DNA of 64,000 nucleotides. Source: Natronorubrum halophilum. Its GTDB lineage: Archaea > Halobacteriota > Halobacteria > Halobacteriales > Natrialbaceae. Within the stretch, counting starts at the first letter, position 1. Each line of letters starts with the position of its first letter. The notes under the pieces are model-generated. The model had not been told where the DNA came from and did no database searches. It saw only the letters and a list, made by a program, of their open reading frames with translations. The position numbers and the translations under genes were made by a program. The DNA is taken from positions 248,001-312,000 of the forward strand of contig NZ_QQTY01000002.1 in NCBI RefSeq assembly GCF_003670115.1, in the 5' to 3' direction. Shown piece after piece: positions 5,660-58,907 of this stretch.

Positions 5660-8002
5660 ATGGCTGTACTCTGGCTGGACGAGATCAGTGCCGGCGACCT
5701 CGAGAAGGTCGGCGGCAAAGGCGCTTCCCTGGGCGAACTTACGGGCGCGGGGTTGCCCGTTCCCCCGGGATTCGTTGTCACCGCCGGGACCTATCGATCG
5801 TTCATCGAAGAGGCCGAAATCGATGACGAACTGTTCGAAGCCGTCGACGTCGATGTCGAGGACTCGAGCGCGCTCGCGGCCGCAGCCGATCGCGCACAGG
5901 AACTCATCCTCGGGACGCCGTTTCCTGACGACCTGCGCGAGGAGATTCTCGAATCCTACGGCGAGGTCGGCGACGGCGAGGCGTTCGTCGCCGTTCGCTC
6001 CTCGGCGACGGCCGAGGATCTGCCCGACGCGTCGTTCGCGGGGCAACAGGACACGTACCTCAACGTCACCGAGGAGGACCTGCTCGATCGCGTGCGCGAG
6101 TGCTGGGCCTCGCTGTTCACCCAGCGGGCGATCTACTACCGACAGGAGCAGGGCTTCGACCACTCGGCGGTCAACATCGCGGTCGTCGTCCAGCAGATGG
6201 TCGACGCCGCAAAGTCGGGCGTGATGTTCACGAGCCACCCCTCGACGGGCGACCCGACGATGATTATCGAGGCCGCGTGGGGGCTCGGTGAAGCCGTCGT
6301 CTCCGGTGCCGTCTCGCCGGACAACTACGTGATCTCCCGCGAGGACGGGGATGTCGACGTGACCGTCGCCGAGAAGAAGGTGATGCACGAAAAGGACGAA
6401 GCGTCCGGTAAAACCGTCGAACGCGAGGTGCCCGAGGCGAAACGAAACGCGCGCGTGATCTCCGACGACGAGATCGATCAGCTCGTCGAACTCGGCGAGC
6501 GCGTCGAAGACCACTACGACAATCCTCAGGACGTCGAGTGGGCCATCGTTGAGGGAGAGGTCTACATGCTCCAGTCCCGGCCGATTACGACCATCGACGA
6601 GGGCGGCGATGAAACGGCGGGATCGACCGGCGGCTCCGTCGACGCTGCGAAGGGGCTCACCGACGGCAGCGGTAGTGTACAGGCCGCTGGCGGCGACGAC
6701 GGGACTGATTCGGGGCCGGGATCCTCCGGCGAGGTTCTCGTCGACGGGCTGGGCTCGAGCCCGGGGACCGTTAGCGGGGCCGCACAGATCGTCACGAAGC
6801 TCGACGACCTCGACAAAGTCAAAGAGGGCGACATCATCGTCACCGAAATGACGATGCCCGATATGGTGCCCGCGATGAAGCGGGCGTCGGGGATCATCAC
6901 GGACGAAGGGGGCATGACCAGCCACGCCGCGATCGTCTCCCGCGAACTCGGCGTGCCCGCCATCGTCGGCACGACGAACGCGACGACCGTCCTCGAGGAC
7001 GGCCAGATCGTCACGCTCGACGGCGACAAGGGTGCGGTCCTCGAGGGGAAGGAAGTCGACCCCGAAGAGGAGACCGAACCCGTCGAAGAGGTTCGCCCGC
7101 AGTCGCCGGTCAAGCCGATGACCGCGACCGAGGTGAAGGTCAACGTCTCGATTCCGGAAGCCGCGGAGCGCGCGGCCGCGACGGGAGCCGACGGCGTCGG
7201 CCTGCTCCGAACGGAGCACATGATCCTCTCGCTGAACCAGACGCCCGCGAAGTTCATCGAGGAAAACGGCGAGGACGCCTACATCACGGAACTCGTCGAA
7301 GGCATCCGCAGCGTCGCCGACGAGTTCTACCCGCGACCCGTCCGTGTTCGCACGCTCGACGCGCCGACCGACGAGTTCCGCCAACTCGAGGGCGGCGAGG
7401 ACGAGCCGAAAGAGCACAATCCGATGCTCGGCTATCGGGGCATCCGGCGCTCGCTCGACCGGCCGGACGTCTTCGCCCACGAACTCGAGGCGTTCCGGCG
7501 ACTCTACGAACTGGGCTACGACAACGTCGAGATCATGTTCCCGCTGGTCAACGACGCCGAAGACATCTATCGGGCGAAAGCGTGCATGGAGGACGCGGGA
7601 ATCGATCCCGCAAAACGCAAGTGGGGGGCGATGATCGAGACCCCCGCATCCGCGCTGTCGGTCGAGGGAATGGCCAAGGCGGGCATCGACTTCGCCTCCT
7701 TCGGGACCAACGACCTCACCCAGTACACGCTCGCGGTCGACCGGAACAACGAGCACGTCGCCGACCGGTTCGACGAACTCCACCCCGCCATCTTGACACT
7801 ACTCGGGAACGTCATCGAGACCTGCCGCGAACACGACGTCGACACGAGCATTTGCGGTCAGGCCGGCTCCAAACCGGAGATGGTCCAGTTCCTCGTCGAC
7901 GCGGGCGTCAGCTCGATTTCGGCGAACATCGACGCCGTTCGCGACGTCCAGCACGAGGTCAAACGGACGGAACAGAAGTTACTGCTCGATTCGGTTCGAT
8001 AG
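5660..8002 (+). CDS. ppsA: Phosphoenolpyruvate synthase
   Basis: PpsA makes PEP, AMP and phosphate from pyruvate and ATP for gluconeogenesis. The 780-residue protein has the N-terminal ATP-grasp domain (AFVAVRSSATAEDLPDASFAGQQDT), an acidic Gly/Ser/Asp linker (about 312-355), the swivel phosphohistidine domain with His422 in GGMTSHAAIV, and the C-terminal TIM barrel including RTEHM and the SICGQAGS cysteine loop. The ATG at 5660 (MAVLWLDEIS) matches the family start, and the upstream in-frame codons are not halophilic. A TATA-like ctttatt lies about 30 bp upstream. Pyruvate kinase, the opposing enzyme, is encoded 7.6 kb downstream. Confidence 0.96.
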   Translation: MAVLWLDEISAGDLEKVGGKGASLGELTGAGLPVPPGFVVTAGTYRSFIEEAEIDDELFEAVDVDVEDSSALAAAADRAQELILGTPFPDDLREEILESYGEVGDGEAFVAVRSSATAEDLPDASFAGQQDTYLNVTEEDLLDRVRECWASLFTQRAIYYRQEQGFDHSAVNIAVVVQQMVDAAKSGVMFTSHPSTGDPTMIIEAAWGLGEAVVSGAVSPDNYVISREDGDVDVTVAEKKVMHEKDEASGKTVEREVPEAKRNARVISDDEIDQLVELGERVEDHYDNPQDVEWAIVEGEVYMLQSRPITTIDEGGDETAGSTGGSVDAAKGLTDGSGSVQAAGGDDGTDSGPGSSGEVLVDGLGSSPGTVSGAAQIVTKLDDLDKVKEGDIIVTEMTMPDMVPAMKRASGIITDEGGMTSHAAIVSRELGVPAIVGTTNATTVLEDGQIVTLDGDKGAVLEGKEVDPEEETEPVEEVRPQSPVKPMTATEVKVNVSIPEAAERAAATGADGVGLLRTEHMILSLNQTPAKFIEENGEDAYITELVEGIRSVADEFYPRPVRVRTLDAPTDEFRQLEGGEDEPKEHNPMLGYRGIRRSLDRPDVFAHELEAFRRLYELGYDNVEIMFPLVNDAEDIYRAKACMEDAGIDPAKRKWGAMIETPASALSVEGMAKAGIDFASFGTNDLTQYTLAVDRNNEHVADRFDELHPAILTLLGNVIETCREHDVDTSICGQAGSKPEMVQFLVDAGVSSISANIDAVRDVQHEVKRTEQKLLLDSVR

Positions 8003-8130
8003 CGACCCCGGTGCGACGCGTTCCTCGTTAGCACCGTTTTCGCTCGAGGAGCGCTGAAACACCGTTTCAATGCCGCTATTCGTGGGCGATAAGCGCAACT
8101 AATAAATCGGTGAGTACTCACAACCGTGAT

Positions 8131-9216
8131 ATGCAAATCGAGCCGCAAGCGTTCGGTCGGGTGCTCTCGTCGATGTGTACGGAACCCCACCCGAAGGCGC
8201 GCGATGCGGCCGAGCGGTTTCTCGCGACGAATCCCGGCGATCCGGGTACCTATCCGAACGTCGCGGCGCTCGAGGACGACGCGATCGCGATGCTCGGCGA
8301 GATCGCCGGACTCGACGAGCCGTCCGGCTACGTCGCCAGCGGCGGTACGGAGGCGAACGTTCAGGCGGTCCGGATCGCTCGCAACCGCGCCGAGACGCGG
8401 ACGCCGAACGTCGTCGTGTCCGAATCGGCCCACTTCAGTTTTCAGAAGGCCACCGACGTGCTCGGCGTGGAGTTGCGGATCGTCCCCACGGACGACGCTT
8501 TCCGTGCCGATCTCGAGGCCGTGAGATCCTGCGTCGATCGGGAGACTGCGCTGGTGGTCGGCATCGCGGGAACGACCGAGTACGGCCGCGTCGATCCGAT
8601 TCCGGAACTCGGCGAGATCGCGGCGTCGGTCGACGCGCTGTTACACGTCGACGCCGCCTGGGGCGGGTTCGTGTTGCCGTTTACCGACCACGAGTGGAAC
8701 TTCAGTCACGCGCCGGTCGATACGATGGCGATCGATCCCCACAAGATGGGCCAGGCCGCCGTCCCCGCCGGCGGCCTGCTCGTTCGCTCCGCGGACCTGC
8801 TCGACGAACTCGCCGTCGACACGCCCTACCTCGAGTCGACCTCGCAGGCGACGCTGACCGGCACGCGATCGGGTGCGGGCGTCGCCAGCGCCGTGGCGGC
8901 GATGGCGGAGCTGTGGCCCGACGGCTACCGGAGCCAGTACGTCCGCTCGCAGCACAACGCCGAGTGGCTGGCCGACGCCCTCGAGAAGCGAGGGTACGAG
9001 GTCGTCGATCCCGCGCTGCCCCTCGTCGCCGCCGACGTCCCGCGCTCGACGTTCGACGCGCTTCGGGCCGAAGGCTGGCGGATCTCGAGGACTGGGACGG
9101 GTGAGCTACGGGTGGTCTGTATGCCGCACGTGACCCGGAAGATGCTCGCGTCGTTCATCGGGGATCTGGACCGACTCGAGGTGCGCGCGAGCGTCCCGCT
9201 CGTGAGCGACGACTGA
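8131..9216 (+). CDS. mfnA: Pyridoxal-phosphate amino-acid decarboxylase MfnA/PanD type (aspartate or tyrosine decarboxylase)
   Basis: The 361-residue group II decarboxylase carries [16 protein letters not shown] and, after [10 protein letters not shown], the PLP lysine Lys205 in [14 protein letters not shown]. In methanogens MfnA decarboxylates tyrosine for methanofuran. Haloarchaea lack methanofuran, so aspartate decarboxylation to beta-alanine for coenzyme A is the more likely role (inference). The ATG at 8131 was chosen over a GTG at 8110 because an AT-rich aataaat box (8101-8107) lies about 25 bp upstream, giving a leaderless start. It lies downstream of ppsA with a separate promoter. Confidence 0.9.
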
Positions 9217-47570: not shown

Positions 47571-50500
47571 ATGGCTCTCTCGAACATCTTGCCGGGGACC
47601 GGCATTCTCGACGATCGTGATCGTCCGTCGACCGACTACGTAGCGACCCGACTCGAGTCGGGCGCGGAAACCGTCAGTGGCCTCTCGATGCGGGTCCGCG
47701 ACGTCGCTTCGGCTGACGCCCGCGATGCGGCCTCGACTCGCATCCGCGATGCGGCCGGCGATCGGGCGACCGACGCCGTCGAACGGGTCGCCAGTGAACT
47801 GCTCGAGCGATCGCTCGATCGGAACCTCGACGAGGTGCTCGAGGACGGTTCGAGCGGTGACGTCGCCGATCCGACCGACCCGTTCGACCGCGCCCTCGAG
47901 AACTTCCTGCGCCGATACGATCTCGACGAGGATCGACTGGACGAGCGCACGCTGGAGGGGATCCGAACCCGGCTGGCGACCGCCGGTTTCGACGTCGACG
48001 CGGAAGACCTGCTCGAGGAACTCGTGTCCGAAGGCGTGTCGGACTCGGACGCGGACCGTTCGACCGACGGTCCGGGTACCGACGAGTCGCTCGTCGAGGT
48101 GTGCTCCCGACTCCGCGCGCAACTGGATGGGACGGCGGACGAGCCGGCCGATAGCGTGCTCGAGGACCTTCTCGAACGCGACGCCGTGGCGGTCGGACAC
48201 GAACTCGAACGCATCCTCGTCGAGGAACTCCCGTCGCTCGTGGCGGAGGCACGAGCAAGGATGGGGCCGTCCGGCGGAGCGGGATCGAGAGCGCGACCGT
48301 CCGATCACCCGCGGCCGGAGCCGGGAACCTCCGAGGTGACGACCTCGAGCGCGGGACCGTCCAACCCGACCGCGAGCGGCGGTCCCGAGGGGAGTCTCCG
48401 GTCGGCCGTCGCGGTGGCGGCCGCGGCGACGACGCTGGTTTCTGACGACGGCATCGATCCTGCTGTCGCGAACCTTGCGACGACGTTGCTTCGGGCCGGC
48501 GACGGCGGTGGCGGCGTGTCGACGGAGCGCGTCCTCCGCGAACTGGTCCCGATGCTGATCCGGACGGGCGCGGAGCGCGAAATCGGTCTCGAGACGCTGT
48601 GCTCGAAGTCGACCGGATCGCTCGCGCTGGTGGGGCTGTTCGTCGCCAACCTCGCCGCGATGAGTCTCGGCGCCTGGGTGTCCCGAACGAAAGCGCCGCC
48701 GATACCCGACGAGATCCGGGGTCCGGACGGAGGTATCGTCGTGACGGATGAGCAGGTCCGCGCGGGAAAGAAAGTGTTTCAGGCTAACGGACTCATGGAC
48801 CACGGCTCGATTCTGGGCAACGGCTCGTACTTCGGGGTCGATCTGACGGCAGACGCCCTCGAGTCGAAAGCGAAGTACATGCGCGAGTACTACGCGCGCC
48901 AGCACGGTGTCGACTCGTTCGACTCGCTCGAGGACGCCGACCGGGCGGCCGTCTCCCAACGCGTCGAGGACGAACTTGACGCCGACGCACCCGAGGGCGA
49001 CGTCGCTCGATACGTGGCAGCGGAAGTGTACGCACACAAGCGGATTCGAGATCGGTACGTCGACCGCTACTACGGAGGCGCTCCCGACCGCGGAATCCCG
49101 CAAGGTTACGTCGACTCCCCCGAGCAGGCCGAACGGATCGCCGACTTCGCGTGCTGGACGGCGTGGATGGCCCACACGAACCGCCCGGACTCGGACCACT
49201 CCTACACGAACGACTGGCCGTACGTGCCCGCGGCCGACAACCGACCGACCGGACAGGTAGTCGTCTGGAGCACCGTCAGCGTCGTCCTGCTCATCGCCGG
49301 CGGCGGAATCGGCGTCTGGGCTTACCACTCCTTCGACGTCGCCGAACCGACGACCGAACTCGTCGACGTGCCGTCGCCCGACTCGGTGTCGGTCACGCCG
49401 TCCCAGTACGCCGCGGCCCGGTACGTCCCCGTCGCCGGTGCGCTGTTCGTCGCCCAGGTGCTCGTCGGCGCGTATCTGGCGCACTACTACGTCGAGCGGA
49501 CCGGCTTCTACGGGATCGGGGATGCGCTGGGGATCGACCTCGTCTCCCTGTTGCCGTTCTCGGTGGGTCGCACCTGGCATCTCAACCTCGGCATTCTCTG
49601 GATCACGACGCTGTGGCTCGCGGGCGGGCTCTTCCTGCCCGGACTGTTCAGCGAGCGAGATCCACCCTGGCAGGCCGAAGGCGCGACCGCGCTGCTCGTC
49701 GCGCTCGTCGCGATCACGGTCGGGGCGTTCGCCGGCGTCTGGCTCGGGACGCGCGGAACGTTCGGCTCGCCCGGGACCGGAAACGACGACGGCAATCTCT
49801 GGTGGTGGCTCGGTAGCGAGGGCCTCGAGTACCTCGAGGTCGGCCGCGTCTGGAAACTGGGACTGCTGGCCGGCTTCGCCGCCTGGACTGGGCTGGTACT
49901 GCGCGGCGTCCGTCAACTCGACGAACCGTCGAGCGGGCTGGGTCACTTCATGACCTACGCGGGCGGCTCCATCGCGCTCATGTTCGCCGCGAGCATGCTC
50001 TACACGCCGGAGACGAACATGGCGGTGACGGAGTTCTGGCGCTGGTGGGTCGTTCACATGTGGGTCGAGGGCGTCTTCGAGTTCTTCGTCACGGCCGTGA
50101 TCTCCGCCGCGCTGGTCTCGATGGAACTCATCGACAAAGCTGACGCGGAGAAGGCGATCCTCTTCGAGGTGTTCGCGATTATGGCGGCCGGCATCGTCGG
50201 GGTCTCCCACCACTACTGGTGGGTCGGACTGCCCGATATCTGGGTTCCCGTCGGAACGACGTTCTCGACGCTCGAGTTCATCCCCCTGGTGTTCGTCCTC
50301 TACCGAAGCTTCGGCGAATACCAGTCGCTGAAAGCCCAGGGCGAGGCGTTCCCCTACACGCTGCCGTTGTTGTTCATCGCCGGCAGCAGTATCTGGAACT
50401 TCGTTGGCGGCGGCGTGCTCGGCTTTTTCGTCAACCTGCCGCTGATCAATTACTACGAACACGGAACCTACCTGACCGTTGCCCACGCCCACACGTCGAT

Positions 50501-50861
50501 GTTCGGTGCGTTCGGGCTGCTCGCGCTCGGACTCGGGACGTACATCCTGCGCGTCGTCACGCCAGAATCGGACTGGGATCCGACGTGGTTCCGCGGCGCG
50601 TTCTGGCTGACCAACATCGGACTCGTCGTCATGTCCGTCGCCTCGCTGCTCCCGATCGGATTCTTGCAGCTCCAGACGTCCTATCAGGACGGCTACGCCG
50701 CCGCACGGAGCCTCGAGTTCTACGAGCAAGACCGCGTCCAGACGCTGCTGTGGGCGCGGACGCTCGGTGATACGCCGATGATCCTCGGGGCGCTCGCGTT
50801 CACCGTCGGATCGGTACGCCACCTCTGGGCCGCGCGACGGCACCGACTCGCGAACGGCTAG
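47571..50861 (+). CDS. norB: Quinol-dependent nitric oxide reductase (NorZ/NorB type) with ~345-residue N-terminal extension
   Basis: This 1096-residue protein couples quinol oxidation to reduction of two NO to N2O at the membrane. The NOR part starts around residue 348 with TM1 (LALVGLFVANLAAMSLGAWV) and continues with the extracytoplasmic quinol domain (KVFQANGLMDHGSILGNGSY), a fused helix and the 12-helix oxidase-like core. Visible ligands: His670 (TWHLN), His829 and Glu833 (VVHMWVEG), His880-His881 (SHHYWW), His972 and His974 (AHAHTS). Residues 1-345 are soluble and acidic (ADARDAASTRIRDAAGDRA, LLERDAVAVGHELERIL) and match nothing I know. No stop separates them. Function of the extension is unknown. 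Confidence 0.9.
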   Translation: MALSNILPGTGILDDRDRPSTDYVATRLESGAETVSGLSMRVRDVASADARDAASTRIRDAAGDRATDAVERVASELLERSLDRNLDEVLEDGSSGDVADPTDPFDRALENFLRRYDLDEDRLDERTLEGIRTRLATAGFDVDAEDLLEELVSEGVSDSDADRSTDGPGTDESLVEVCSRLRAQLDGTADEPADSVLEDLLERDAVAVGHELERILVEELPSLVAEARARMGPSGGAGSRARPSDHPRPEPGTSEVTTSSAGPSNPTASGGPEGSLRSAVAVAAAATTLVSDDGIDPAVANLATTLLRAGDGGGGVSTERVLRELVPMLIRTGAEREIGLETLCSKSTGSLALVGLFVANLAAMSLGAWVSRTKAPPIPDEIRGPDGGIVVTDEQVRAGKKVFQANGLMDHGSILGNGSYFGVDLTADALESKAKYMREYYARQHGVDSFDSLEDADRAAVSQRVEDELDADAPEGDVARYVAAEVYAHKRIRDRYVDRYYGGAPDRGIPQGYVDSPEQAERIADFACWTAWMAHTNRPDSDHSYTNDWPYVPAADNRPTGQVVVWSTVSVVLLIAGGGIGVWAYHSFDVAEPTTELVDVPSPDSVSVTPSQYAAARYVPVAGALFVAQVLVGAYLAHYYVERTGFYGIGDALGIDLVSLLPFSVGRTWHLNLGILWITTLWLAGGLFLPGLFSERDPPWQAEGATALLVALVAITVGAFAGVWLGTRGTFGSPGTGNDDGNLWWWLGSEGLEYLEVGRVWKLGLLAGFAAWTGLVLRGVRQLDEPSSGLGHFMTYAGGSIALMFAASMLYTPETNMAVTEFWRWWVVHMWVEGVFEFFVTAVISAALVSMELIDKADAEKAILFEVFAIMAAGIVGVSHHYWWVGLPDIWVPVGTTFSTLEFIPLVFVLYRSFGEYQSLKAQGEAFPYTLPLLFIAGSSIWNFVGGGVLGFFVNLPLINYYEHGTYLTVAHAHTSMFGAFGLLALGLGTYILRVVTPESDWDPTWFRGAFWLTNIGLVVMSVASLLPIGFLQLQTSYQDGYAAARSLEFYEQDRVQTLLWARTLGDTPMILGALAFTVGSVRHLWAARRHRLANG

Positions 50862-51890: not shown

Positions 51891-51911
51891 GGTACTCGGT
51901 TATGATGTGAT

Positions 51912-51986
51912 AGCGGGATGGGATAGCCAGGAGATTCCGGCGGGCTCATAACCCGCAGACCGGTAGTTCAAATCTACCTCCCGCTA
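51912..51986 (+). tRNA. Initiator tRNA-Met (CAU)
   Basis: The 75-nt molecule folds into a cloverleaf. The acceptor arms AGCGGGA and TCCCGCT pair with A1-U72, and A73 is the discriminator base (no encoded CCA). The anticodon stem GCGGG/CCCGC has three consecutive G:C pairs next to the loop CTCATAA with anticodon CAT (51947-51949). These two features mark an initiator rather than an elongator tRNA. The T loop reads GTAGTTCAAATCTAC. It closely matches the haloarchaeal initiator tRNA. A TTTT run at 51987-51990 follows. Confidence 0.97.
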
Positions 51987-51990
51987 TTTT
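51987..51990 (+). terminator. T-run terminator after tRNA-Met
   Basis: Four T residues directly follow the tRNA discriminator base, an arrangement typical of archaeal termination at oligo-T. Weak evidence alone. Confidence 0.4.
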
Positions 51991-52071: not shown

Positions 52072-52223
52072 ACCTACAAGGAGTTTCGTGAGCCTCGAAA
52101 ATTGTTTAGCGGAATTTGAAGTAGACCGCGAGCGAGCGAAGTGCGGTGTAGTTTAAATGACTCTTTCGACGCGGACAATACTGAGGGGCGAAGTGACGAG
52201 CACCTGGCAGTATCTACCGGTAC

Positions 52224-52231
52224 CTATAAAT
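52224..52231 (+). promoter_or_regulatory. TATA box of dpp operon
   Basis: The sequence ctataaat is centred about 27 bp before the ATG at 52255, so the transcript should start at or near that ATG. This argues against the upstream GTG at 52246 as start. Confidence 0.65.
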
Positions 52232-52254
52232 GTTGAAAAACATGAGTGTATTCC

Positions 52255-54144
52255 ATGCCAACGGATCTCACATCGAATACTCGTGCGAAACTCCGAGCGA
52301 CGAGTTCCCGTCGACGCGTCCTCCAGACGATGGGTGTCGGTGCCGCTGCCGGTCTTGCCGGCTGTTTTGGCGACAGTTCGGACGAGGACATAGACGTACC
52401 CGACGTGGAACTGTACGGTCCGGGCGGCGACCGGATCGAACTGACCATATTTTTCGAGCAAGGGAGCGACACTCACCAGGATATCGCGTCCCAGATCAAG
52501 AGCGACCTCGAGTACATCGGGGTCGAACTGGACCTCCAAGGCGAGACGCAACTCATCGGTGACCACTTCAGTTCGGAGCCGTTGCCCGACGAGGACCCGG
52601 ACGACTTCGAGTACTCGCCGGGCCTGTTCAACGCCGGGCCGCCGGACCGAACGCGGACGGTCTCCGACTGGGATCTGCTCTACGGCATCGCCGCGAACTC
52701 GTATCCGCGAACCCCGGGGAACACGGACACGTTCTGGCTGAAAAACTCGGGAACGAACGCTTACGGCTACGTTCCGGAGGTGGACATGGCAGGACTGTAC
52801 GAGGACTTCCGAAACGCGGAGACCCAAGCGGAGAAACAGCAGTTCTTGAATCAGATCATGGGTGCGCTTACGGACGAACTCCCGGCGAATTTCATCTCTC
52901 AATCGCTTCGGTTCTGGGGCTTCGACGAGAACATCAACACCGAGGACGAGTTCAACCTGTACGGCTACGTGCCCGATCACATCAACCGGTATCGCGATGA
53001 GCAGACCGTCGGCGGCGACTACACCTGGCTCACGGGTAACCAGTTCAACGAGGCTTACCTGCCAGAACAGGAAGACAACAACTCGAGCTACCGGACCGGT
53101 CTCATCAGCGACGTTTCGTACACGATCGATACGAACGACGAGGTGTATCCGCTGTTCATGGACATCGAGGATAGCGGTGACGGTGCGGTGTGGGTCTGTA
53201 CCCTCCGCGATAACCTCGAGTTCGGAACCGATGCCGACGGGAACGGCTACGGACAGATGACCGCGGAGGACTGGGTCTACCAGATCGAGTATATTCACGG
53301 CGTCGCCGACGATGCGAGCGACGCGTGGAACGAGGAACTTCCACCCGGACAGCCCGGAGACTGGACGGACGTCGAGAACGTCGAACGGACCGGCCCCCTC
53401 GAGTTCCAACTCGAACTCGTCGAACCGGATCCGCTGTTCCCGCTCCGACCGGTCATCTGGGGCGAGTACTGTTATCCGATGGAACTCTACGAACAGTACG
53501 CGCCCGACGCGGAGGCGCTCCGCCAGTCGACGGAAGTCCAGGAGTTCACCTGGACCGGGAACCTCGGCGCGTACACGTTCGAGGAGCGGACGGCGGGCCA
53601 GAGCGGCTCGTTCACCGCCGTTCGCAACGACGACTACTACCTTCGCGACCACACCGACGACAGCAACGTCCGGGTGATGGACGACGCGTGGGCGGACGCG
53701 CCGTACTTCGATCAGTTCCGGTTCGATACCGAGTCCGAGCAGCCGACCCGGGTCGAACGGTTCCGGAACGGGGAAGCGGACCGGATGGAACTCCCGAGCG
53801 AGAACATCCAGGAGTTCGAGGAAGCCGTCGACGAGATTCGGGTCGAAGACCAACAGGACCCCTACATTAGCTTCCTCTTTTTCAACCAGCGGGCTAACGG
53901 GAGCATCCTCACTCGAGAACGGGACGGTCGGGAGGCCATCGCTCGAGTGGTCGACAAGGAGACGATCACCCAGGAGATCCAGCGCGGCCGGGCGGACCCC
54001 GCAGTCACGTTCCAGCCGACGTGGTCCGATTGGTACGACGAGTCCGCGGTCACCGTCTACGGCATCGATATCACCGAAGACGATATCGTTGCGGCTCGTG
54101 ACGTCCTTCGCGATAACGATAATTTCACGGTCGAAGAAGTCTGA
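52255..54144 (+). CDS. dppA: Tat-exported lipoprotein, ABC peptide-type substrate-binding protein with apparently permuted domain order
   Basis: A 629-residue binding protein of the peptide/nickel (SBP_bac_5) type. The N-terminus SSRRRVLQTMGVGAAAGLAGC has a twin-arginine motif and a lipobox with Cys37, so it is exported folded and lipid-anchored. Residues about 51-229 (IELTIFFEQGSDTHQDIASQ, IKSDLEYIGVELDL, NAYGYVPEVDMAGLYEDFRN) resemble what is normally the C-terminal half. Residues about 252-625 (DEVYPLF, WVCTLRDNLEFG, MTAEDWVYQIEYI, GREAIARVVDKETITQEI) resemble the normal N-terminal and middle parts. This swap is analysed in the findings. It leads a five-gene operon. Confidence 0.92.
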   Translation: MPTDLTSNTRAKLRATSSRRRVLQTMGVGAAAGLAGCFGDSSDEDIDVPDVELYGPGGDRIELTIFFEQGSDTHQDIASQIKSDLEYIGVELDLQGETQLIGDHFSSEPLPDEDPDDFEYSPGLFNAGPPDRTRTVSDWDLLYGIAANSYPRTPGNTDTFWLKNSGTNAYGYVPEVDMAGLYEDFRNAETQAEKQQFLNQIMGALTDELPANFISQSLRFWGFDENINTEDEFNLYGYVPDHINRYRDEQTVGGDYTWLTGNQFNEAYLPEQEDNNSSYRTGLISDVSYTIDTNDEVYPLFMDIEDSGDGAVWVCTLRDNLEFGTDADGNGYGQMTAEDWVYQIEYIHGVADDASDAWNEELPPGQPGDWTDVENVERTGPLEFQLELVEPDPLFPLRPVIWGEYCYPMELYEQYAPDAEALRQSTEVQEFTWTGNLGAYTFEERTAGQSGSFTAVRNDDYYLRDHTDDSNVRVMDDAWADAPYFDQFRFDTESEQPTRVERFRNGEADRMELPSENIQEFEEAVDEIRVEDQQDPYISFLFFNQRANGSILTRERDGREAIARVVDKETITQEIQRGRADPAVTFQPTWSDWYDESAVTVYGIDITEDDIVAARDVLRDNDNFTVEEV

Positions 54145-54197
54145 TCGGTGACCGGATATCAAAGATATCCACGGACTTACGCACACATATTGTTTCC

Positions 54198-55265
54198 ATG
54201 AAATGGTATCTCATTCGACGGACGCTCTGGGCCGGGTTCGCGTCGTTCATCATCCTCACGATAACGTTCGTGTTGATGGATCAGGTTCCGAATCAACAGA
54301 TAATGCAGGCTGAGTTCCAGGCGGCAGTCGACGGGGTCGACGCTGACACCGCCGTCCAGGCCGCGAAGGAACGCCGGGGGCTGGATCGGCCGTTCCACGA
54401 GCGCTACTTCGACTTCCTGACGAACGTCTTTCAGGGTGATTGGGGCTGGTCGTACGAGTACAGCCAGCCCGTTGTCGAGGTCGTCCGCCAGACGGTTCCG
54501 TACTCGTTGATGTACGGCGTCCCCGCGATCGTCCTCTCGACGGTCATCGGAACCGCTATCGGCCTCTACTCGGCGGTCAACCAGTACACGAAGAAGGATT
54601 ACGCGGCGACGTTCGTCGCGTTCTTCGGCATCAGCATTCCGAACTTCTGGTTCGGAATCGTGTTGCTCGTCATTTTCGGCTCGTTCCTCGGTTGGGTCGA
54701 TATCGGCTGGAACCACGCGCTACCGAAGGCCGCTGACGGAAGCTGGACGCTACTCGAGATGGCCGACGATAGCCATCCGGCGTTCTACCGGCAAGAATTC
54801 GAGGGTGAACGATACGTCGGGATACTCAGTCCCGAGAATATCAAACAGCTCATCCTGCCGACCTTCGTGTTGATGACCGGCGCGATCGCTTCGGTCATGC
54901 GCTATGCGCGCGCCGAAGCCCTGGAGTACGTCGACGCGGATTTCGTCAAGACCGCGAAATCGAAGGGCGTCAGCGGTCGAACGATCGTCGTCAAACACAT
55001 TTTCCGACCGGCGTCGATCCCGCTGATGACGATTATGGTCGGGCGAATTCTCGGGCTGGTGTTGTTCGGCTCGTACCTGATAGAGGTGGTATTCGGCATT
55101 CCCGGCATCGGACTGGCATCGTACGAGGCCATCATCAGACAGGACACCGATCTGGTCGCGATCACGATCCTCTTGCCGACGTTCCTCGCGATTATCGGTA
55201 ATCTCGTAGAGGACATCATGTACGCGGTTCTCGATCCACGAATCGAGTACGGTGATCGGTCATGA
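54198..55265 (+). CDS. dppB: ABC transporter permease DppB-type
   Basis: A 355-residue inner-membrane permease. The first helix is followed by a long extracytoplasmic loop with a family-typical RRGLDRPFHERYFDFL. The permease core begins at LMYGVPAIVLSTVIGTAIGL. The cytoplasmic EAA loop for ATPase contact is seen around YARAEALEYVDADFVKTAKSKG. The final stretch GIPGIGLASYEAIIRQDTDLV is conserved among DppB. A ~40-residue insertion (AADGSWTLLEMADDSHPAFY) sits between helices. Its stop overlaps dppC (ATGA). Confidence 0.94.
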   Translation: MKWYLIRRTLWAGFASFIILTITFVLMDQVPNQQIMQAEFQAAVDGVDADTAVQAAKERRGLDRPFHERYFDFLTNVFQGDWGWSYEYSQPVVEVVRQTVPYSLMYGVPAIVLSTVIGTAIGLYSAVNQYTKKDYAATFVAFFGISIPNFWFGIVLLVIFGSFLGWVDIGWNHALPKAADGSWTLLEMADDSHPAFYRQEFEGERYVGILSPENIKQLILPTFVLMTGAIASVMRYARAEALEYVDADFVKTAKSKGVSGRTIVVKHIFRPASIPLMTIMVGRILGLVLFGSYLIEVVFGIPGIGLASYEAIIRQDTDLVAITILLPTFLAIIGNLVEDIMYAVLDPRIEYGDRS

Positions 55266-56476
55266 GCAACGAGACGACGGATACGGACGGTGCAAGCGCG
55301 ACGTTCGAGCGAGTCGACTGGGAGGAAATAGACCGCGCTGACGCGTCGCGATCGAAAAAGCAGACCGTCTGGTTCGGCGTCGTGAGCGTGTGGACGGTCG
55401 GCGTCCTGTACGACCTGTATTCGCGGTTCGTCGCCGAGACAGGACCCGCGGAGTTTCCGGTTCTCGAGACGGTGGCGGCAGTCGACTGGCTGTGGTCGAT
55501 GACCCTCCTGCTCTTGTTCTACTACGGTGTCGTTCCGCTCTACGAGAACAAGCGGATGACGAAGTACTACTGGAAGGAGTTCAAAAAGAACACGGCAGCG
55601 GTTATCAGCGGGCTGTTCCTGATCGTGATATTTCTGGTCGGCGTGATCGGTTCTCGAATCCTTCCGGCTCCGGAACCGAATCCGGGTCTAGAAAACCAGC
55701 CACCGGTCTGGGGCTCCATCGAAGCGTACATCACCGGCACCGACTGTCCCGGCGGTACGACCGTGGAGGGCGGTGTGACGATGTGTCAGGGGAGCTGGCA
55801 GCACCCGCTCGGAACGACGTCCTCCGGCGAGGACATCCTCCTGGCGAGTATTCATGGCATGGAAGTGAGCATGCAGGTCGGACTCATCGCGACGATGATG
55901 AGTATCTCGATCGCGGCAGCGGTCGGCCTGACAGCCGCCTACTACGGCGGAATCGTCGACGAGGTGTTGATGCGCTACGTCGACATTCAGATGACGTTCC
56001 CGACGTTCTTCCTGTTCCTGTTGCTCGCGTACACGTTCAGCGGGAGCCTGTTCGTGCTGATTCTCATCTTCGGCCTGTTCGGGTGGGGATCGTCCGCCCG
56101 AATCATGCGATCCGAAGCGCTTCAGCGCCGTGAAGAACCCTATATGAAGGCGGCGAAGAACTCCGGTGCCTCGAGCTTCTGGACGATCCGCCGACACCTC
56201 CTGCCGAACGTCTCGAACAGTCTCATCACTGCGGCATCGCTTACGATACCGACGATTATCCTCGCCGAAGCGGCGATCGCGTTCCTCGGACTCGGAGATC
56301 CGACGGTTCCGTCCTGGGGCCGATTGATCGCCGGCGGTCGCAACCAACTGAAGAACGCGTGGTGGATCTCGACGATCCCGGGCGTCTTCCTGTTTTTCAC
56401 CATCCTCGCGTTCAATTTCCTCGGTGACGCGCTTCGGGATGCGCTCGACCCGAGACACGGGGGGAGCGGAGAATGA
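55262..56476 (+). CDS. dppC: ABC transporter permease DppC-type
   Basis: A 404-residue permease. Extra helices precede the standard N-terminal OppC domain (YYWKEFKKNTAAVISGLFLI). The core has HPLGTTSSGEDILLASIHGM, a typical HPLGTDxxGRD equivalent, and the EAA loop LQRREEPYMKAAKNSGASSF. The end is ILAFNFLGDALRDALDPRH, as in the family. Length exceeds usual DppC (~300) because of the extra N-terminal 90 residues with two membrane helices. Start and stop overlap neighbours by 4 nt. Confidence 0.94.
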   Translation: MSNETTDTDGASATFERVDWEEIDRADASRSKKQTVWFGVVSVWTVGVLYDLYSRFVAETGPAEFPVLETVAAVDWLWSMTLLLLFYYGVVPLYENKRMTKYYWKEFKKNTAAVISGLFLIVIFLVGVIGSRILPAPEPNPGLENQPPVWGSIEAYITGTDCPGGTTVEGGVTMCQGSWQHPLGTTSSGEDILLASIHGMEVSMQVGLIATMMSISIAAAVGLTAAYYGGIVDEVLMRYVDIQMTFPTFFLFLLLAYTFSGSLFVLILIFGLFGWGSSARIMRSEALQRREEPYMKAAKNSGASSFWTIRRHLLPNVSNSLITAASLTIPTIILAEAAIAFLGLGDPTVPSWGRLIAGGRNQLKNAWWISTIPGVFLFFTILAFNFLGDALRDALDPRHGGSGE

Positions 56477-57585
56477 GTATACGAAAAGACAGCACGACCG
56501 ACGACGAACGCGCATCGGATGGCCGAACCGAGCAACCGCTTCTGGAGGTTTCGAACCTCCACACGTACTTCCACACGGACGACGGGGACGTCAAAGCAGT
56601 CGACGGCGTCTCGCTGACAGTCGAACCCGGCGAAACCGTCGCCATCGTCGGCGAGAGCGGTTCGGGGAAGACGGTCACCAGCGAAGCGATCACGCGGCTG
56701 TTCAAATCCCCGCCGGGCTATATTCCCGAGGGATCGATCACGATCAACGGCCAGGAGATCACGGAGATGTCCGACGCCGAACTCCGTCGCGTCCGGGGTG
56801 GAACGGTGAGTCATATCTTCCAGAACCCGCAGGGAGCGCTTAACCCGGTGTATACGGTCGGTTGGCAGATCCGCGAAGCGATCCAACTCCACGCGGACGT
56901 CTCCAAAGACGAGGCCCGAGAGCGCGCCGTCAAGCTACTCACTCGAGTCGGAATTCCCGAAGCCAGTTCCAGACTCGACGACTACCCACACGAGTTCTCC
57001 GGGGGGATGAAACAGCGCGTGCTCATCGCCATCGCGCTGGCGTGCGAACCGGAGCTGTTGATCGCCGACGAGCCGACGACGGCCCTCGACGTGACGATAC
57101 AGGCACAGATCCTGGAACTACTCAAGGAACTACAGGCACAACGGAACATGGGGATGCTGTTCATCACCCACGATCTGGGAGTCGTCGCCGAGATCGCCGA
57201 TCGGGTGGTGGTGATGTACGCCGGAAAGGTCATGGAGCGGGGACCGGTACTGGAGATCTTCGAGTCTCCTGCGCATCCGTACACCCGGGCGCTTCTCGAC
57301 TGTCTTCCCGGTCGAGGCGGGATGGGTGGCATCCCCGGTAACCTGCCCGATCCCCGGTCACCGCCATCCGGCTGTCGGTTCGCCGACCGCTGTCCGCACG
57401 ACGTTGCCGACTGTCGAAACGATGGCCAGCCGCCGATGCATCAGGTCGGGAACGCCGCGGAGCACACGACATCCTGCGTCCATTTCGAACCGGGACGGGA
57501 TCCGAACACCGTGTTGGGTACCGATCTTGACGCTTCTGAGCGGACAGAACCGTCCGACGGCGTGGACGGAGGTGATCGACGATGA
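56473..57585 (+). CDS. dppD: ABC transporter ATP-binding protein DppD-type
   Basis: A 370-residue ATPase. Motifs: Walker [10 protein letters not shown]-loop [11 protein letters not shown], signature FSGGMKQRV, Walker [13 protein letters not shown] and the H-loop ITHDLGVV. The C-terminal oligo_HPY region ([20 protein letters not shown], then [22 protein letters not shown]) has several cysteines that may bind an iron-sulfur cluster, as in some peptide transporters. It is translationally coupled to dppC and dppF by ATGA overlaps. Confidence 0.95.
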
Positions 57586-58907
57586 GTCGAACCGACGAAC
57601 CGCTGTTACGAGTCACCGACCTGAAAAAGCACTACCCCATCACAGAAGGATTACTGAACACCGAAGTCGGGCGCGCCCGCGCAGTCGACGGTATCAGTTT
57701 CGAACTCGAGCGCGGCGAGACGTTCGGGATCGTCGGCGAATCCGGCTGCGGGAAGTCCACCGCCGCATCGTCGATGATCCGCCTCGACGAACCGACGGAC
57801 GGCGAGATCATCTTCGACGGTGAGAACATCCTCGAGTACGACGCGGCGGAGCTCCGGCAGTTCCGCAGGGAAGTGCAGCTGATCTTTCAGGATCCCGACT
57901 CGAGCTTCGACCCCCGGATGAGTATCGGCGATTCCGTCGCGGAACCCCTCACGGTTCAGGGGATGACCGACCGCGACCGACGCAGAGCGATCGTCGGCGA
58001 CCTCCTCGAGCGGGTCGGTCTTTCGGCGGCGGACATGAAACGCTACCCACACGAGTTCTCCGGGGGACAAAAACAACGGATCGGGCTGGCTCGAGCGCTC
58101 ACGGTAAATCCCGAATTACTCGTTGCCGATGAGCCCGTCTCCGCACTCGACGTCTCCGTCCAGTCGGAAATCCTTCGCCTTATTGACGAGTTTCAGGAGG
58201 ATCTGGGGCTCTCGGTGATTATTATCAGCCACGATCTCGACGTCGTCCGCGAGGTGTGTGACCGCGTCGCGGTGATGTACCTGGGTGAGTTCGTGGAAGT
58301 CGGTCCGACGGAGGAACTGTTCTCGAACCCACAACACCCCTACACACGAGCGCTGCTATCGGCCATTCCGACGCCCGACCCCACCGATCGGGGACTCGGC
58401 GTCGAACTCAAAGGCGATGTTCCAGACCCGTCAGCGCCCCCGACTGGCTGCCGATTCCACACGCGCTGTCCGGAGGTCATCCCCCCAGACGGGATCGATC
58501 TCCCGCAGGATACGTGGCGACGCCTCCTCCAGTTCCGAAAACAGGTCGAAAGCGAGTCGATCGATCTCGAGAGCATCGTCGAGATCGGCGTCATGGAATC
58601 CGACGATCACTACGAGGAACTCGACGAGCCGACCCCCGACGCGGTCGCCGCGGACGACCTCAAACGGTGGATCCGATCCGAGTACGAGATCCCCGCTCCG
58701 CTGGGCGATTCACACGCCGAAGCGACGCTCGAGGACGCACTCGATGCGGAGTACGAACGCGCGAAAGAACGACTTGCGGACGAGTTCACAACCGTCTGTG
58801 AGATCGAGAACCCGGAACTCGAGGGGTGTGGAACCGGACAGGTGGCTGCGTGCCATCTCAACGGTGATACGCAGGAAAGATACGACGAGATTCGATTGAC
58901 CGAGTGA
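57582..58907 (+). CDS. dppF: ABC transporter ATP-binding protein DppF-type with extended C-terminus
   Basis: A 441-residue ATPase, longer than the usual ~330. Walker A GESGCGKST is at 52-60, signature FSGGQKQRIGLARAL, Walker [13 protein letters not shown]-loop ISHDLDVV. After the CRFHTRCP motif, an insert of about 115 acidic residues (LPQDTWRRLLQFRKQVESES to AKERLADEFTTVCEIEN) precedes the final cysteine motif (ELEGCGTGQVAACH). The same kind of long insertion is seen in the paralogue at 60660, so it is a feature of this haloarchaeal subgroup. Confidence 0.94.
   Translation: MSRTDEPLLRVTDLKKHYPITEGLLNTEVGRARAVDGISFELERGETFGIVGESGCGKSTAASSMIRLDEPTDGEIIFDGENILEYDAAELRQFRREVQLIFQDPDSSFDPRMSIGDSVAEPLTVQGMTDRDRRRAIVGDLLERVGLSAADMKRYPHEFSGGQKQRIGLARALTVNPELLVADEPVSALDVSVQSEILRLIDEFQEDLGLSVIIISHDLDVVREVCDRVAVMYLGEFVEVGPTEELFSNPQHPYTRALLSAIPTPDPTDRGLGVELKGDVPDPSAPPTGCRFHTRCPEVIPPDGIDLPQDTWRRLLQFRKQVESESIDLESIVEIGVMESDDHYEELDEPTPDAVAADDLKRWIRSEYEIPAPLGDSHAEATLEDALDAEYERAKERLADEFTTVCEIENPELEGCGTGQVAACHLNGDTQERYDEIRLTE

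Follow-up and report, generated by a model that had tools for sequence, protein, structure and literature searches.

A Naturally Permuted Cluster C Substrate-Binding Lipoprotein and Its Recurrent Origin in One Haloarchaeal Order

The dpp Operon and Its Substrate-Binding Protein

The window analyzed here, a 64,000-nucleotide stretch of DNA from Natronorubrum halophilum, carries on its plus strand a dpp operon headed by a dppA-type open reading frame (52255 to 54141, with the stop codon at 54142 to 54144; an alternative GTG start is possible at 52246). Two permease genes and two genes for oligo_HPY ATPases follow it, dppBCDF at 54198 to 58907, which is the gene context of a cluster C binding protein. 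The features of the locus are:

52255 to 54144 (stop codon included), plus strand: permuted dppA-type substrate-binding lipoprotein, 629 aa (Pfam, homologue and profile matches)
52255 to 52365, plus strand: twin-arginine signal and lipobox, R19 to R21 and LAGC with Cys37, at the new N-terminus (sequence inspection)
52402 to 52962, plus strand: segment B, aa 50 to 236 (Pfam, homologue and structure-profile matches)
52963 to 53016, plus strand: junction between the former C-terminus and the former mature N-terminus, aa 237 to 254 (alignments of permuted with canonical proteins)
53017 to 54141, plus strand: segment A, aa 255 to 629, the canonical N-terminal part (Pfam, homologue and structure-profile matches)
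54198 to 55265, plus strand: dppB, permease (PF00528, E 1.7e-30; BPD_transp_1_N)
55262 to 56476, plus strand: dppC, permease (PF00528, E 8.8e-31; OppC_N)
56473 to 57585, plus strand: dppD, ATPase with oligo_HPY (PF00005, E 5.7e-30; PF08352)
57582 to 58907, plus strand: dppF, ATPase with oligo_HPY (PF00005, E 1.5e-31; PF08352)

Segment B corresponds to the C-terminal part of a canonical protein, namely the end of PF00496, the remainder of lobe 2 and the return to lobe 1, and is now N-terminal, separated from the lipobox Cys37 by a short acidic linker. Segment A stops after a conserved ARDVLRDN helix. The lipobox (SRRRVLQ...LAGC) was assigned by inspection, the match to the Pfam TAT model being weak (E 0.31), and R19, R20, A35, G36 and C37 are invariant across 13 permuted orthologues. 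In every permuted member listed, the twin-arginine/lipobox signal is N-terminal. A first-pass annotation of this DNA had located both the lipobox and the segment motifs correctly.

Several other features of the window were recorded. A tRNA-Met (CAT) gene (51911 to 51987) lies directly upstream of the dpp operon. An ORF of 1096 aa at 47571 to 50861 encodes a qNOR-type nitric oxide reductase with a NorB cytochrome c-like domain (aa 379 to 551) and a COX1 domain (aa 615 to 1067); for its first ∼370 residues, Pfam gave no clear hit (UPF0149 weakly, E 0.009), and the ORF may have a misassigned start or be two genes run together. On the minus strand, a 677-aa open frame (52153 to 54186) spans the entire permuted gene and an 1108-aa frame likewise covers the norB-like gene; both antisense frames are probably shadow ORFs in GC-rich coding DNA.

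Reversed Order of the Two Segments

The whole 629-aa protein matched PF00496 with an E value of 5e-34 and a score of 118.4 bits, above the curated cutoff of 32.4. The matches were non-collinear, their order being reversed along the model: residues 305 to 616 fell on model positions 11 to 271, and residues 61 to 99, in the N-terminal piece alone, fell on positions 288 to 326. The two halves therefore lie on opposite ends of PF00496, as the first-pass annotation had predicted. The N-terminal match was weak by itself (E 0.045), and we therefore tested the order with homologues. Residues 274 to 621 aligned to residues 66 to 402 of canonical homologues from the same archaeal family (E about 1e-80), and residues 50 to 228 aligned to residues 412 to 590 of such homologues (E about 1e-32). 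When the halves were searched separately, their profiles again matched opposite ends of solved cluster C proteins. Specifically, the segment B profile matched solely C-terminal parts, for example residues 352 to 404 and 410 to 503 of AppA (1xoc; E 1.5e-6), and the segment A profile matched N-terminal parts, for example residues 32 to 336 of 6npo (E 1e-18) and 116 to 342 of 1xoc.

Segment profiles applied to many genomes revealed a single A and a single B segment in every family member read; in our first tree set of 53 rows, 27 had the B-A order and 26 the A-B order. The first-pass annotation had proposed that dppA is circularly permuted and had named a canonical C-terminal half after residue 628 as evidence to the contrary; no such half lies beyond residue 629, since dppB begins 54 bases past the stop codon. 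The order reversal is far beyond chance, and the window gene is a real circular permutation, with single-copy segments in swapped order, the old termini joined and the new termini located within a domain. An AlphaFold run on the window protein and one orthologue returned a pLDDT of 28 and a pTM of 0.18, which was uninformative because the alignment was only two sequences deep.

Distribution and Selection

Haloarchaeal genomes were searched for orthologues with a profile of all permuted groups. A full-length B-A match was present in 42 of the 391 genomes sampled for the class, and thus the permuted form is not confined to this genome; roughly 115 of the 391 gave canonical matches only. The best three candidates per genome were scored, a procedure that may miss paralogues. 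All 42 genomes belong to three families of one haloarchaeal order (code designations are used for the families f4 and f5 and for the genera g33, g70 and, in f4, g55) and divide into the groups P1, which includes the window gene (15 genomes), P2 (9), P3 (17) and P4 (1). No permuted member was found outside this order in a phylum-wide genome sample and no relative was found in viral contigs searched with the permuted profile, and the relatives recovered from plasmid records were all canonical. Permuted orthologues of the window protein are 81 to 84% identical (for example, Natribaculum breve L006), the best named one being that of N. breve at 84% in the complete genome NZ_CP095390.1. Within its own genome, the next matches to the window protein reach only about 30% identity over roughly 120 residues, and hence no canonical twin obviously serves the window operon. 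In the same family, a divergent canonical pair (L133 and L134) has a segment B that matches in two pieces, which suggests that lobe 2 has gained an insertion or changed rapidly.

Seven pairs of permuted orthologues gave dN/dS values of 0.03 to 0.29, ruling out a pseudogene. Together with the presence of dppBCDF after most permuted genes read, these values indicate that the permuted form is under purifying selection and is a maintained protein. The same data bear on whether the permutation might be an artefact of chance similarity, misassembly or decay. The weak N-terminal Pfam match taken alone would fit such a reading, but the profile and homologue matches are very strong, the form is present in 42 genomes including a complete one, and the ORFs are intact and constrained. 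We regard an artefact as so improbable that it can be set aside.

Independent Origins of the Permuted Order

For phylogenetic analysis of the substrate-binding proteins (SBPs), both segments were put in a common order. The resulting 53-row tree contained three state changes forced by well-supported branches. Placing all permuted genes in one clade cost 437 log-likelihood units (AU p 1.9e-59), and a single origin as one permuted clade was therefore rejected. A dppBCDF tree of 1449 columns, which contained no SBP sequence, also gave three changes, with the same neighbours. We also built a larger SBP tree of 67 rows that took in further canonical genes and, as outgroup, the canonical L132 from a different family of the phylum. 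This tree forced four changes, and in it the P4 gene L077 paired with the canonical L124 of the same genus (support 100/99). Uniting P1 and P2 in one clade was rejected (AU p 2.6e-4); uniting P3 and P4 was rejected less strongly (AU p 0.03), and their separation has moderate support. P1 as a single clade was weak in the larger tree (73/36), and part of P1 grouped with canonical genes in a short B-only tree. Throughout, the permuted clades are interleaved with canonical genes. These trees count switches between the two orders, not their direction. Thus, the forced changes and AU rejections, of which that for P3 and P4 is the weaker, indicate at least three and probably four independent permutations in one haloarchaeal order.

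Synteny and Cut Sites

In genus g33, the gene order around the permuted L078 and L080 matches that around the canonical L128, both in several genes upstream and through dppBCDF. Between L078 and the canonical L125, collinearity extends from the SBP across dppBCDF into the genes past the operon. Among these four loci, just the two segments are exchanged within the SBP gene. Similarly, the permuted L077 and the canonical L124 have their downstream flank in common. These syntenic flanks around swapped segments indicate that the change arose inside the gene at its own locus. The first-pass annotation had also offered a genome rearrangement as a reading; it is not one in the usual sense. Most relatives read keep the permuted gene in an intact dppABCDF operon, with dppB onward directly 3′ of it. 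The operon is not always kept: in L081, L083 and L136, also of genus g33, the permuted SBP gene lacks the adjacent dppBCDF that the related L078 retains. These three loci would be consistent with selection of the permuted protein for another role, for example as a surface receptor that no longer passes its solute on. In most permuted loci read, however, dppBCDF directly follows the permuted gene, and the agreement of the SBP and dppBCDF trees indicates joint inheritance, so we consider another role improbable.

Comparison of permuted with canonical proteins defined the cut sites. In P1, P2 and P4, the cut falls between the canonical ...YGYDGD and TLLGPDG..., and in P3 it falls ∼30 residues earlier, between ...FYPGDD and DLPQFG.... 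The two sites flank one conserved lobe 2 helix (ARxLLE...), which is retained with segment A in P1, P2 and P4 and carried with segment B in P3. In two pairs, the cut could be placed to the residue, with zero residues lost. In genus g33, the bond between residues 388 and 389 of canonical L128 corresponds to residues 657 (the last) and 89 of permuted L078; in P2, residues 450 and 451 of canonical L088 correspond to residues 624 (the last) and 61 of permuted L073. In P4, the internal join, AGGADESAGLPEDIEEPP, is similar to the linker that follows the lipobox in canonical proteins, GGTDTSGEQGIPEETDELP, as would be the case had segment A taken part of its own linker with it. The cuts map to mature residues about 329 and 356 of Escherichia coli OppA, and by this mapping both lie within domain III as it is delimited in AliD (PMC11192437) and BbOppA4 (PMC5736914). 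A cut at the hinge between lobes 1 and 2 was considered and dropped, as these positions are well inside domain III.

The near identity of the cut in P1, P2 and P4 is what common descent would predict, and parsimony counts cannot distinguish gain from loss. A single ancient permutation from which several lineages later reverted to the canonical order would account for both. Against this, the order is canonical in the outgroup L132, in the Pfam model and in the matched solved structures, the P3 cut site is unlike the rest, and the permuted genes were rejected as one clade. Moreover, each permuted clade is surrounded by canonical genes, so a single gain needs more total changes, and the cases in genera g33 and g55 suggest that permuted clades are nested in recently diverged canonical genes. 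We therefore judge repeated reversal to be quite unlikely and favor independent permutations.

Proposed Route and Relocation of the Lipid Anchor

We envisage that in each event an in-place gene rearrangement placed segment B ahead of segment A. The old termini, which both lie in lobe 1, would have been joined and the chain opened anew in a lobe 2 loop, with the twin-arginine lipoprotein signal remaining in front throughout. Two models are standard for natural circular permutation, duplication with later trimming and fission with later fusion (PMC3320104). The former, here an in-frame tandem duplication that was later trimmed, is the most likely route, as each event preserved the signal peptide and the frame of all segments, and A and B were not seen as genes of their own. 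Tandem-duplicate intermediates were sought in the loci read and none was found. Under fission–fusion, the segments would have become separate genes that later fused in the opposite order. The canonical L125 gene of genus g33, which is interrupted close to where segment B begins, offers some precedent for this route. Yet none of the relatives read encodes A and B in distinct intact genes, all permuted members are single ORFs with an N-terminal signal, and a free-standing B would have required its own secretion signal; these points make fission–fusion unlikely. At L125 itself (7100 to 8287), the SBP frame ends near the segment B start and the remainder of B lies downstream past a frame change; this gene is possibly a pseudogene or a split gene.

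The position of the cuts has a predicted consequence for anchoring. In AliD, domains I and II make up lobe 1 and domain III (residues 297 to 582) makes up lobe 2, with both ends of the mature chain in domain I (PMC11192437); the domain layout of BbOppA4 is similar (PMC5736914). Cuts in domain III would thus join the old lobe 1 termini and open new termini in lobe 2, and, with the signal still in front of the new N-terminus, the lipid anchor would shift from lobe 1 to lobe 2. The window protein is most likely a working binding protein with its lipid anchor relocated from lobe 1 to lobe 2 (domain III). The permuted protein would most likely still adopt one intact two-lobed fold, with the membrane anchor exiting from lobe 2 rather than lobe 1. 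It would close around its solute, dock on DppBC and hand the solute to DppBCDF, the transporter encoded by the adjacent genes. The oligo_HPY ATPases in the operon suggest that this solute is probably a peptide or a similar compound. In a model of the Ami permease, both lobes of the binding protein are contacted (PMC11192437), so tethering the other lobe could alter presentation to the permease.

Taken together, we hold it highly probable that the window gene encodes a natural cluster C permutant that probably folds, binds and feeds DppBCDF, with its anchor on lobe 2, and that this form arose in place at least three and probably four times. More tentatively, permutation at the lobe 2 loop of haloarchaeal peptide/nickel-type binding lipoproteins may be a repeatable and adaptive switch, by which at least four lineages would independently have moved the anchor from lobe 1 to lobe 2, with congeneric species still differing in the form found at the same locus; this is a possibility to which we assign somewhat less than an even chance.

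Comparison with Known Systems

Both window segments match canonical cluster C proteins (DppA, OppA, AppA and NikA; PF00496) over nearly their whole length, and the gene order, with its permeases and oligo_HPY ATPases, is the same; the window protein differs in its reversed segments and in the predicted shift of the anchor and both termini from lobe 1 to lobe 2. The haloarchaeal canonical sisters (L128, L124 and L084) are closer still, with 35 to 76% identity per segment, the same operon and the same type of lipoprotein signal, and L128 occupies the same syntenic locus as L078, but they have the A-B order. DNA methyltransferases and saposin/swaposin are classic natural circular permutations, repeated in the methyltransferases (PMC3320104). 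They resemble the window gene in being natural gene permutations, but their folds are unrelated, and partly duplicated intermediates are documented for the methyltransferases, whereas none was found for the window family.

In the open-access literature, we found no report of a permuted cluster C or haloarchaeal binding protein; the search did recover TpMglB-2 (Tp0684) of Treponema pallidum, a permuted glucose-binding lipoprotein for which a type Ic fold, or cluster Bc, was proposed and whose authors raised adaptation to anchoring as a possible reason (PMC4990184). In both cases, an ABC substrate-binding lipoprotein is naturally circularly permuted and its tethered N-terminus has a new place. 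TpMglB-2, however, has a cluster B sugar-binding fold, and the window protein belongs to SBP_bac_5; its sequence matches are to cluster C proteins, which places it outside a TpMglB-2-like cluster Bc or type I fold. The moved part of TpMglB-2 is about 70 to 100 residues with 13% identity to its counterpart, such that a structure was needed to detect it. By comparison, the haloarchaeal moved part spans about 190 to 240 residues at up to 70% identity; canonical orthologues share its locus, and the permutation has recurred.

Pipelines for domain or ortholog assignment that presuppose collinear sequences see such permuted genes as partial matches. If anchoring is the reason for the permutation, then ABC import is sensitive to which lobe of the binding protein carries the tether. 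The family also offers an uncommon experiment of nature in how much rewiring a chain can undergo with the protein retained. Natural permutations usually come to light long after they arose, through comparison of distantly related structures. In this family, species of one genus carry permuted and unpermuted orthologues, 70% identical, at one and the same locus, the cuts are residue-exact and the change recurred in related lineages, so that the route, frequency and fitness effect of permutation become directly testable.
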